Source: Solibacteraceae bacterium (GTDB lineage Bacteria > Acidobacteriota > Terriglobia > Bryobacterales > Bryobacteraceae). From it: a DNA stretch of 64,000 bases. Shown piece by piece: positions 7,723-57,955 of this stretch (position 1 is the stretch's first letter; each line of letters opens with the position of its first letter). A model generated the notes under the pieces. It was not told where the DNA came from and did no database searches. It worked only from the letters and a program-made list of their open reading frames with translations. Both the position numbers and the translations under genes were made by a program. The stretch lies in NCBI GenBank assembly GCA_021324015.1, contig JAJPJX010000129.1:62001-126000 (forward strand). The letters run 5' to 3'.

Positions 7723-8880
7723 GTGCAATCCGCAACCCTGACCCTGGCCTTCTTCTGCGCGGCCCTGGCCGCGCCTGCGCAGTTCCTGCATAAAGGGACT
7801 TTCGAGGACCGTCCCTCGGTCGCGCTCTCGAACGACAAGATGGAACTGACCATCCTCACTAATGGCGGCGCTCTGGTGAACCTGGTGTTGAAGGACGACC
7901 CGCAGCAGATGAGCCCGTTCTGGAATCCCATCCGCATGGCGCGGGAACTCGGCCAGCCCAATAACTTCGGCACCTCCCTGGGGCACTTCGTGTGTGTGGA
8001 CGGTTTCGGCCCGGTTTCGGAGGAGGAGAAAGCCGCGGGCCTGCCCGGCCACGGCGAAGCGCACACACGGCCCTGGGAGATGCGCCACTCTGCCCGGGAG
8101 GGCCGCGTGGCGGCTGTGAGCTTCGCGGCCGAGTTGCCCGTGGTGCAGGAGACCTTCACCCGGACTCTGCGCATGGTGGACGGCGAAAACGTGATCTATG
8201 TGCAGAGCGAACTGGAGAGCGCGCTGGGCTTCGACCGGCCGGTGTGCTGGGCCGAGCACGCCACCATCGGCTCGCCGTTTCTCCAGCCCGGCGTGACCGC
8301 GGTGGACATGTCCGCGCGGCGGGCCCAGACCCGTCCTTACGAAGGCGGCAACGGGGGCCTCACACACCGCCTGCCCTCCGGTAAGGATTTCACATGGCCG
8401 TTCGCACCGGGAGCCCGGGGCGGCAAGATCGACCTGCGCACGGCCCCGCGGGAAGGCGGCACCGGCGACCATACCACCTGCCTCATGGATCCCTCGCGAA
8501 AGCTGGTGTGGGTCACCGCCGTGAACCCGGAAAAGCGGCTCATCCTGGGCTACCTGTTCCACCGCGACGAGTATCCCTGGACGCAAAACTGGGAAAATTA
8601 TCCGGCCAGCATGAAGTGGGCGCGCGGGATGGAGTTCTCCACGCAGCCATACGACGTGCCGCGGCGCCAGGCTGTGCAGGACAACTCCCTGTTCGGCGCG
8701 CCCACCTATCGCTGGCTGCCGGCGAAATCCAAAATCGGCTCCAGCTTCCTGATCTTTTTCGCGCACACCCCGGAGGGCTTTCGCAAGGTGGACGACGTGC
8801 GGCTGGAGAATGGCCAGATCGTGGTCGAGGACCGCAAGGACAAACTGCAGATCACGCTGGCGGCTTCGCTGCCGCTTTAA
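7723..8880 (+). CDS. Secreted galactose-mutarotase-like protein, function unknown
   Basis: This 385-residue protein begins with GTG and a short signal peptide (to about AAPAQ). The beta-rich body starts LSNDKMELTILTNGGALVNLVL and contains HFVCVDGFGP, WAEHATIGSPF and LGYLFHRDEYPWTQNWENYP. These resemble the galactose-mutarotase-like fold of aldose epimerases and related carbohydrate-binding proteins. The conserved histidine and glutamate of true epimerases cannot be assigned with confidence, so enzyme activity is not claimed. It may share a transcript with tdh, but a weak -10-like TAGTCT six bases before the GTG also allows its own leaderless promoter. Confidence 0.7.
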   Translation: MQSATLTLAFFCAALAAPAQFLHKGTFEDRPSVALSNDKMELTILTNGGALVNLVLKDDPQQMSPFWNPIRMARELGQPNNFGTSLGHFVCVDGFGPVSEEEKAAGLPGHGEAHTRPWEMRHSAREGRVAAVSFAAELPVVQETFTRTLRMVDGENVIYVQSELESALGFDRPVCWAEHATIGSPFLQPGVTAVDMSARRAQTRPYEGGNGGLTHRLPSGKDFTWPFAPGARGGKIDLRTAPREGGTGDHTTCLMDPSRKLVWVTAVNPEKRLILGYLFHRDEYPWTQNWENYPASMKWARGMEFSTQPYDVPRRQAVQDNSLFGAPTYRWLPAKSKIGSSFLIFFAHTPEGFRKVDDVRLENGQIVVEDRKDKLQITLAASLPL

Positions 8881-8883
8881 GTT

Positions 8884-9551
8884 TCACATGGCGCTCTTGC
8901 GGAAGATCAGGATGTGCTGGCGTGGCAGCGTCTCCTGTACCCGTTCCAGCCGGTAGCCCTGCGGCTCCACTTCGGCTTGGACTCCAGCCACGCTCATCTT
9001 GTGCTCCGGGCGGATGGGAACCTTGGGGTCCTCCTGCCGGTACTCCAGCAGCACCAGGCGGCCGTCCGGTTTCAGGGAACGCCGGATGCCGTCCAGCATC
9101 TTCTCCGGCTCGGAAAACTCGTGGTACACATCCACCAGCAGCACCAGGTCCAGCTTTCCCGCCGGCAGGCGGGGGTCATCCTCCGCGCCCAGCACGGTCT
9201 CGAAATTGTGCAGACCGCGCTGCTCCAGGTTCCTGCGGAGCTGTTCCAGCATGCGCGGCTGGAGGTCGTTGGCGTAGACCTTGCCGGTGGGTCCGACGCG
9301 CTCCGCCAGGCGCCAGGTGAAATAGCCTACTCCGGCGCCCACGTCACCCACGGTGGCGCCCGCGGGAACCCGATAGCGTCCAGGGCGGCATCCGGTGCTT
9401 CTTCCTGCTCGCGTTCCGGCCGCACCAGCCAGGGGGCACCGCCGTATCCCATCACCGGGGCGATGTGACGCCCTGTAATAGGGTGCACCGTCTCCCCGCC
9501 CCGGGCCGGAGGCAGGCTCAGCACCAGGGCCAGCAGAAGGCACGCGCGCAT
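8884..9551 (-). pseudogene. SAM-dependent methyltransferase, single-base frameshift
   Basis: The gene begins at 9551 with a signal peptide, then VHPITGRHIAPVMG and ERE..APDAALDAIG. That frame then runs out in PRAPPWVTWAPE and a stop. The expected continuation VPAGATVGDVGAGVGYFTW (SAM-binding motif I) is in the next frame and runs on through LVLLVDVYHEF to the stop at 8884. Adding one base to the CCC run at 9369-9371 would join the halves in register. The family is the secreted class I methyltransferases common in Acidobacteriota and Planctomycetes; the substrate is unknown. The cause may be real mutation or a homopolymer sequencing error. Confidence 0.8.
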
Positions 9552-9570
9552 CCTCCCAGCTTATACCCCA

Positions 9571-9599
9571 TTGGCAGCGCCGTGCGCTTGGTTTACTAT
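9571..9599 (+). promoter_or_regulatory. Promoter of the RsbRD_N-like gene
   Basis: TTGGCA (9571-9576), 17 bases and TACTAT (9594-9599) form a good sigma70-type promoter. The start point would fall near 9606, inside the inverted repeat at 9604-9622, so the leader is only about 18 bases. Confidence 0.6.
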
Positions 9600-9603
9600 T
9601 GAA

Positions 9604-9622
9604 CTGCACCTGGGAGGTGCAG
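9604..9622 (+). promoter_or_regulatory. Perfect inverted repeat covering the Shine-Dalgarno of the next gene
   Basis: CTGCACCT (9604-9611), GGG, AGGTGCAG (9615-9622) is a perfect 8-bp inverted repeat ending one base before the ATG at 9624. It contains the only Shine-Dalgarno sequence (GGGAGGTG). In RNA it would form a hairpin hiding the ribosome site; in DNA it could be an operator over the transcription start. Confidence 0.6.
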
Positions 9623-9623
9623 C

Positions 9624-10076
9624 ATGCTTTCCGGAAAGCTGGTTCATCTGATCGAAGCTCATTGGGACCAGGTTTTCCCCCGCGCCCTCGAGGAAATCCG
9701 CAAAGATCCCAAGCTCCCGCACATCGGCAGACTGCCGGACCTGGAGTTGCGCGAACGCGCTCAGGACATCCTGGAGCACCTGGGCCACTGGCTGGCCGCC
9801 GGCAACGAGGACGAAGTTGCCCGCCGCTATGAGGCCTTGGGCCGGGCGCGCTTCGAAGAGGGCATCCCGCTGCACGAAAGCGTCCGCGGGTTCCAGATTG
9901 TTAAGGAAAAGATTATCGATTTCATCCACGAGCAGGGCACCGCCAAGACCTCCGTGGAGTTGTACGCCGAAGAAGAACTCGAACTGCGCTTGTCCGGCTT
10001 CTTCGACGTGCTGGTGTATCACCTCATCCGGGGCTACGAGGGCGCCTGGCGGCGAACCCGGCAAGCGGCCGCATGA
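9624..10076 (+). CDS. RsbRD_N-like helical sensor-type protein
   Basis: This 150-residue, probably all-helical cytoplasmic protein has no signal peptide or membrane segment. It begins with LVHLIEAHWDQVFPRALEEI and contains RRYEALGRARFEEGIPLHESVRGF, then VYHLIRGYEGAWRR. The pattern resembles the RsbRD N-terminal domain found alone or fused to STAS and kinase modules of stress-signalling systems. No STAS, kinase or phosphatase gene is nearby, so the partner is unknown. The start is set by GGGAGGTG, which lies inside a perfect hairpin; expression is probably controlled at that element. It could equally be an unrelated helical family. Confidence 0.6.
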   Translation: MLSGKLVHLIEAHWDQVFPRALEEIRKDPKLPHIGRLPDLELRERAQDILEHLGHWLAAGNEDEVARRYEALGRARFEEGIPLHESVRGFQIVKEKIIDFIHEQGTAKTSVELYAEEELELRLSGFFDVLVYHLIRGYEGAWRRTRQAAA

Positions 10077-10125
10077 GTTCCCTGGCTCGTTGCGAAAAGG
10101 CAATCCAGGCGGCACACTGGTCGGC

Positions 10126-10596
10126 ATGAGAGGGATTTGGCTGCTGCTGTGCGGGCCGCCGCTACTGGCTCAGAGCCTGCACGTTTTCGGCGGTCCCGGA
10201 TCGCCGGGTGAGGAGGTCCAGGTGGATATTGTGCTGGTGTCCCCGGCGGGCCACGAACCCTCCGCCCTGCAATGGGAGGTTTCTTTTCCCGCCGCCGAAC
10301 TCGCCCTTGAGGGTTCCGGGGCGGGGTTGGGGATTGCCGCACGGGACGCCGGCAAGGGCATCCAGTGCGCCGAACAGCCTTCCGGGCAGGTCACCACGCG
10401 CGCCTACCGGTGTCTGCTGGCCGGCGGCCAGAAGACCATCCGCAACGGGCCAGTGGCGGCGCTCAAACTCAAGGTCGGCGCCGGCGCCCGGCGCGGCGAC
10501 GCCCGCGTCCGCATCACGCACGCCATCGGGGTGTCCGCGGACCTGAAGAAGGCCACCATCCCGGATGCCGAGGGCGTCGTCACCATTCGGCCCTGA
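10126..10596 (+). CDS. Small secreted protein with cohesin-like beta domain
   Basis: This 156-residue product starts at ATG 10126 with a short signal peptide ending near LLAQ. The remaining ~135 residues look like a cohesin or cohesin-like beta sandwich: GSPGEEVQVDIVL, SALQWEVSFPAAELAL, YRCLLAGGQ and VAALKLKVGAGA. Cohesin folds outside cellulosomes usually mediate protein binding on the cell surface. No dockerin is seen in the window. It follows the RsbRD_N-like gene by 49 bases on the same strand and may be co-transcribed. The assignment rests on pattern only. Confidence 0.6.
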   Translation: MRGIWLLLCGPPLLAQSLHVFGGPGSPGEEVQVDIVLVSPAGHEPSALQWEVSFPAAELALEGSGAGLGIAARDAGKGIQCAEQPSGQVTTRAYRCLLAGGQKTIRNGPVAALKLKVGAGARRGDARVRITHAIGVSADLKKATIPDAEGVVTIRP

Positions 10597-57102: not shown

Positions 57103-57328
57103 GTCTGCCTCCTGGACGCGACAGTATCATCCGGCGCCAGAGAGTGCAAGTTGCATCTAGAGACCACAATTGATAGGCTGGTCTTTCCGGAGAAGGCCGT
57201 GGATCCGCAGCGAGCGTTATTCCGAAAGGCGCTCCACGGCTCAGCGGAGATCATGCCATAGGGAGAGGAGAAGCAGCATGGCGCGGTTCGTCCGACTCGA
57301 AGTCCTTCAGAAAATGATTTAGACAGGC

Positions 57329-57955
57329 ATGGTGCCTGTCTTCTACAGCGCCGACGTGGAGGTGGCCAAGCGGGTCGCCGCCGCGGTTTTTGCCGGTGGC
57401 TCTCCGCTTCTGGAGTTCACCAACCGGGGCGATCACGCCTGGGAAGTCTTCACGGAATTGGAGCGGCATTGTGCCCGGGAATTGCCTGGCATGATTCTGG
57501 GCGTCGGTTCGGTGGTGGACCCCGGTACGGCCTCGCTCTACATCAACTGCGGCGCCAACTTCGTGGTAGGTCCGATTCTCAATGCCGACGTGGCGCGCGC
57601 CTGCAATCGCCGCAAGATCCCGTACTCGCCCGGCTGCGGCAGTGCAAGCGAGATTTCTCAGGCGGAAGAACTGGGCTGCGAGATTGTGAAGGTGTTCCCG
57701 GGCGCCGAGGTCGGCGGGCCGAAATTCGTCAAGGCGATCAAGGGGCCGTGTCCCTGGGTTTCCATCATGCCGACGGGCGGCGTGGAGAGCACTGAGGCCT
57801 CCCTGAAGGCCTGGTTCGACGCCGGCGTCGCCTGCGTCGGGATGGGCTCGAACCTGATTACCAAGGAGCTGCTCAAAGCGGGGGACTACGCCGGCATCAC
57901 CGCCAAGGTGAAGGACACGCTCGAGCTGATCGGAAAGGTCCGGGCCGGAAAGTAG
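57329..57955 (+). CDS. KDPG/KHG aldolase family protein, with amber codon between a better upstream start and this frame
   Basis: The 208-residue TIM barrel reads MVPVFYSADVEVAKRV, LLEFTNRGD (catalytic Glu), GVGSVVDPGTA, YSPGCGSASEISQAEELG and KVFPGAEVGG (Schiff-base Lys in VKVFPG). The family splits 2-keto-3-deoxy-6-phosphogluconate or similar 2-keto-3-deoxy acids. Upstream in the same frame, ATG 57278 behind GGAGAGGAG encodes ARFVRLEVLQKMI, the family's usual N terminus, then TAG (57320-57322) where glutamate is expected. ATG 57329 is two codons later, so reinitiation could give the shorter protein. A functional enzyme without the first helix is uncertain. Confidence 0.82.
   Translation: MVPVFYSADVEVAKRVAAAVFAGGSPLLEFTNRGDHAWEVFTELERHCARELPGMILGVGSVVDPGTASLYINCGANFVVGPILNADVARACNRRKIPYSPGCGSASEISQAEELGCEIVKVFPGAEVGGPKFVKAIKGPCPWVSIMPTGGVESTEASLKAWFDAGVACVGMGSNLITKELLKAGDYAGITAKVKDTLELIGKVRAGK

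Follow-up and report, generated by a model that had tools for sequence, protein, structure and literature searches.

RNA thermometers of the hsp17 and ROSE types are the closest described systems in layout, in that a single hairpin would cover the Shine-Dalgarno sequence by the start codon. The hsp17 hairpin is reported to contain an internal 1x3 bulge (PMC4477652). The locus studied here lies in a 64,000-nucleotide stretch of DNA, hereafter the window, and carries a comparable single hairpin, but it differs from these thermometers in having no bulge, in lacking conservation among the relatives read, and in a 5' arm of which part would lie outside the transcript if the promoter works as proposed. 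A palindrome over the transcription start between divergent genes is also the classical place of an operator. The window palindrome resembles operators of this class in lying at the putative +1, but neither the genome nor the family contains another exact copy, and the syntenic loci have no counterpart repeat. For the downstream gene, the closest described systems are the RsbRD_N family (PF14361) and the globin-like sensors PDB 3pmc and 3pmd, with which the structure model of the window protein aligns best, at weak sequence similarity; the protein differs from RsbRD_N in scoring below the Pfam cut-off and in comprising 150 residues without a further domain.

The features of the locus are collected in Table 1. 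The hairpin is present as described in the first-pass annotation: its arms occupy 9604-9611 and 9615-9622 around the loop GGG (9612-9614), TGAA separates TACTAT from the 5' arm, and a single C (9623) separates the 3' arm from the ATG at 9624. The promoter proposed there also holds at 9571-9599. With a spacer of 17 nt and a 9/12 consensus match, it is the sole one at the scan threshold on both strands of 8800-10200, where shuffled sequence gives a mean of 0.2, and it recurs in several homologues. The ATG at 9624 aligns with residue 1 of the homologues, and the placement of the Shine-Dalgarno sequence within the repeat is likewise supported. Transcription generally starts 7-9 bases past the end of the -10 element; since this element ends at 9599, the start would fall at about 9606-9608, within the 5' arm.

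Table 1. Coordinates of the promoter, the hairpin and the two divergent genes in the window.
Feature	Position	Strand	Basis
Divergent methyltransferase gene	8884..9551	-	Start 9551 inferred from homology
-35 element TTGGCA	9571..9576	+	Promoter scan; hexamer and 17-nt spacer also in L031, L033 and L037
-10 element TACTAT	9594..9599	+	Promoter scan; recurs before homologue starts
Putative transcription start zone	9606..9608	+	7-9 bases past the -10 end; inside the 5' arm
Perfect inverted repeat CTGCACCT-GGG-AGGTGCAG	9604..9622	+	Read from the sequence
Shine-Dalgarno sequence GGGAGGTG	9612..9619	+	In the loop and 3' arm of the hairpin
RsbRD_N-like protein (150 aa), globin-type sensor fold (model)	9624..10076	+	Frame, profile, predicted structure

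The protein encoded downstream scores 16.5 bits against Pfam RsbRD_N, below the gathering cut-off of 24.3, and RsbRD_N is matched at E <= 0.05 by 35 of the 40 aligned members, window included (best 2.9e-9). The structure model (pLDDT 90.4, pTM 0.83) aligns best with 3pmc (Z 15.1, 128 aligned residues, rmsd 2.3) and 3pmd (Z 15.1, 139 aligned, rmsd 2.5), both titled sporulation inhibitors, followed by the globin-coupled sensor domain 4zvb (Z 14.5, 131 aligned, rmsd 2.2) and the stressosome sensor domain 3zta (Z 12.9, 129 aligned, rmsd 2.5). Since helical models can score Z near 13 by a common arrangement, the argument is carried by the top rows. From Z 15.1 down to 12.5 these are globin-coupled sensors and globin-like sensor proteins, and the first phycobiliproteins come in at Z 12.4. 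Additionally, the sequence profile matches 3pmc with an E value of 0.00056. By its predicted fold the protein would thus belong to the globin-type sensor domains, which supports the earlier naming of an RsbRD_N-like gene, weakly by sequence and by the fold of the model; a globin fold in a model does not establish function. The spacer to the divergent methyltransferase gene is 72 bp. In the assembly as given, the N-terminal and catalytic parts of the methyltransferase lie in different frames, and the frame is uninterrupted in the syntenic relatives L115 and L101; the break would be either an assembly error or a recent frameshift.

To compare the locus with its relatives, we collected homologues from 61 genomes, 24 of which held a match (own genome included), and from 237 genomes of the family, 59 of which matched at E <= 1e-30 (own included); eight of the 68 match rows in the family-genome search were not taken as such. 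The 72 homologue loci, less L030 (a partial match) and one duplicate start, gave 70 homologues, and five further distinct starts brought the set to 75. A contig scan with alignment A1 returned 40 loci, 35 of them with the same starts as in the other genome set, whereas the contig scan with the single window protein found no relative; alignment A2 comprised 39 of 40 loci, leaving out L111, together with the window. Where a homologue match did not reach back to residue 1, its start was placed by extrapolation from the query, and the codons at the aligned place of the 75 distinct starts are 71 ATG, two GTG, one CTG and one GTA. The relatives compared belong to other genera, the nearest homologue having 60% protein identity; those named are mostly Bryobacteraceae and other Acidobacteriota, with L123 and L125 named otherwise. 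The window itself would come from a bacterium of this kind, apparently an acidobacterium living in soil.

Both the promoter and the Shine-Dalgarno sequence recur among these relatives. Of the 70 homologues, 16 are preceded by a promoter match of at least 8/12, where shuffles yield about 4.4, and in 11 of these the distance from the -10 end to the start is 12-26 nt (28% in shuffles). The window, L031, L033 and L037, all among the 16, share the pattern TTGGCA-N17-TA(C/G)(C/T)AT, which ends 16-24 nt from the start. When the range 8-28 nt before the start was searched, with the expectation taken from single-base shuffles, a TA..AT box turned up in 21 of 75 homologues, where 3.1 would be expected, in every case at 16-24 nt; the distance of 24 nt from the -10 element to the ATG in the window is the top of this range. 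Exact TACTAT stands 19-24 nt before the start in five of 75 homologues, window included (0.2 expected), and a Shine-Dalgarno match of at least five bases to AGGAGGTG is found 4-18 nt before the start in 54 of 75. With its two elements 17 nt apart, inside the 16-18 nt required here, and found again in relatives about as far from the start, the pair reads as a sigma-70-type promoter. A promoter accepted by the scan is present in only a minority of the homologues, which counts against the reading of an ordinary promoter with a chance palindrome. Six loci (L044, L046, L047, L049, L085 and L088) show a different upstream pattern, CCTTGACTC followed by TA(A/C)CT about 17 bases after TTGACT; the pattern, whose second box stands in the context CGTA(A/C)CT, was seen by eye, and this box is not accepted by the consensus scan.

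The hairpin, by comparison, is not kept. The first-pass annotation had named random drift of the repeat in close relatives as the observation that would speak against a regulatory role, and among the 74 other distinct starts, all from other genera at no more than 60% identity, the repeat sequence is kept in none. Neither does any of these 74 starts have a stem of at least eight pairs near the Shine-Dalgarno sequence; the window alone has eight, the next-best stem has seven pairs (L029, 31% identical, a partial match), and every other start has at most five. The two loci that retain the divergent methyltransferase, at 74-76% identity (L036 = L115 and L035 = L101), have a -10-like box before the start (TACTAT, TAGCAT) and no inverted repeat with arms of at least six bases in the last 75 nt before it. 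Across nine loci, such repeats occur in these 75 nt in the window and in L033 only; the one in L033 sits at a greater distance from the start, around its -35 element. Stretches complementary to the Shine-Dalgarno sequence just upstream of it were found in one of 54 homologues against 0.92 expected, in a test that misses the window itself, where the Shine-Dalgarno match runs into the loop. Since the promoter and the Shine-Dalgarno sequence recur and the hairpin does not, constraint can be seen, for part of the family, on the promoter and the Shine-Dalgarno sequence and not on the pairing.

The claim that the hairpin is more than chance was not borne out by stem counts either. Among 327 gene starts, drawn from 459 kb of the genome, two have a perfect stem of at least eight pairs (loop 3-8) over the Shine-Dalgarno zone, against 0-3 (mean 1.35) in 20 shuffles, and seven have a stem of at least seven pairs, against 2-11 (mean 4.55). 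These counts are approximate, as the gene caller behind them was rough and set the methyltransferase start wrongly, and the shuffles are a simple dinucleotide walk. No special cause need be invoked for a stem of such length at a single gene start. Both starts with stems of at least eight pairs fall in the window, which holds 44 of the 328 called genes, and the whole window contains 20 perfect stems of this length, same-centre recounts included, against 6-18 (mean 12.2) in ten dinucleotide shuffles; this mild excess over each of the ten shuffles counts against the chance palindrome. Elsewhere in the window, a perfect 9-pair repeat, AGACAGGCATGGTGCCTGTCT, lies at 57321-57341 over the putative start codon of the frame 57329-57955 given by the rough caller.

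The full hairpin alone has a predicted energy of -12.5 kcal/mol, and the 86-nt region round it is mildly more stable than its shuffles (z -1.65), 13 of which, out of 200, equal or surpass it. A transcript beginning at G9606 would retain a 6-pair stub of -8.9 kcal/mol with most of the Shine-Dalgarno sequence still paired, one beginning at C9607 a 5-pair stub of -4.2 kcal/mol, and one beginning at A9608 a 4-pair stub of only -1.9 kcal/mol. In the predicted fold of the C9607 and A9608 transcripts, the Shine-Dalgarno sequence is instead paired with the first part of the coding sequence. Each of the three starts is therefore predicted to leave the ribosome site occluded. A passive effect of the stub or of the alternative pairing on translation is possible by these models, and the predicted pairing of the Shine-Dalgarno sequence is the main point against a chance palindrome.

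Taken together, an ordinary promoter with a very short leader and a fortuitous palindrome, rather than a switch, is quite probably what the locus represents; the hairpin is most likely a chance palindrome because several relatives keep the promoter and the ribosome site without it. Specifically, the sigma-70-type promoter TTGGCA-N17-TACTAT would drive the RsbRD_N-like globin-fold sensor gene from a leader of about 16-18 nt, and the purine-rich Shine-Dalgarno sequence GGGAGGTG would be maintained for translation; its 8-base upstream complement would have arisen by chance in this lineage, perhaps with a few extra bases gained between the -10 element and the Shine-Dalgarno sequence, and the remaining stub of 4-6 pairs would at most lower translation passively.

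A lineage-private RNA switch, either an attenuator or an RNA thermometer, would demand a transcript from G9606 or earlier, in which 6-8 pairs hide the Shine-Dalgarno sequence until heat, a protein or the ribosome opens them, and we regard it as unlikely. The predicted energies of the full hairpin and the G9606 stub, with the Shine-Dalgarno bases 9615-9619 mostly paired, agree with such a switch, but the -10 element, which recurs in relatives, places the start inside the 5' arm. The distant homologue L029 offers a parallel in its 7-pair stem over its own Shine-Dalgarno sequence, yet the absence of the stem from the 74 other distinct starts leaves no compensatory changes to count, and pairing kept by identity or by compensatory change was found at none of these starts, which come from other genera only. 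Moreover, the perfect GC-rich stem without a bulge is unlike the hsp17 thermometer with its reported internal bulge (PMC4477652). A search of window positions 9300-10300 against Rfam gave no match over the hairpin; the one match in this range, at 9315-9447, stayed below the threshold. The lack of a match is also what a new RNA would give. The L029 hairpin (cctccgaTTGAtcggagg) lies 14-31 bases before the homologue start.

It is rather improbable that the 19-bp palindrome is bound over the transcription start by a dimeric repressor, perhaps for the sensor gene or for the divergent methyltransferase. The perfect palindrome over the putative +1 in the divergent spacer stands where such an operator would be expected, but the genome of 8.2 Mb contains one exact place and none with one mismatch, and the exact palindrome occurs in one of the 237 family genomes, as does the reversed control, leaving no exact copy in the 236 others. 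Relatives of the palindrome with three mismatches do exceed chance: the window has six places where 0.41 are expected, and the genome has 101, compared with 36 for the reversed control. Each of the 13 two-mismatch places falls within a stop-free frame of at least 308 codons, which agrees with coding sequence, and an operator regulon was rejected on this account. Further promoter-near copies, from exact to two mismatches, or a fixed sequence in the relatives were not found, the syntenic relatives have no inverted repeat in the stretch and arm length given above, and a scan of three neighbour proteins identified no known DNA-binding regulator among them, one of the three having no family match. 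Besides the hairpin, the window has five three-mismatch places, two of which (11022 and 12278) lie inside long frames; many of the three-mismatch places in the window and the genome may read like coding sequence.

A minimal attenuator private to the lineage appears very improbable. Here, a start at G9606 would open the mRNA with the 6-pair Shine-Dalgarno hairpin, a start at A9608 would let the Shine-Dalgarno sequence pair with the coding start, and the choice of start site would, if this is true, control translation of the globin-type stress sensor via the hairpin stub. An intrinsic terminator and a repeat family were both rejected, as the three terminator-like sites lie elsewhere and the own genome holds a single exact place.

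The chance palindrome beside an ordinary promoter thus stands as the preferred explanation, with confidence lowered slightly because the alternative Shine-Dalgarno pairing and the three-mismatch excess count against it. Of the earlier interpretation, the promoter, the start, the Shine-Dalgarno sequence and the gene type hold, and the hairpin as a translation switch or operator is not supported, the repeat being absent from the relatives read. The result is mainly a calibrated negative on perfect stems over the Shine-Dalgarno zone: by shuffling, about one in 240 gene starts of this GC-rich genome should have a perfect 8-pair stem there. Beyond the hairpin, our data point to a recurring promoter with a very short leader that precedes a family of small sensor genes with a globin fold in Bryobacteraceae-like bacteria.
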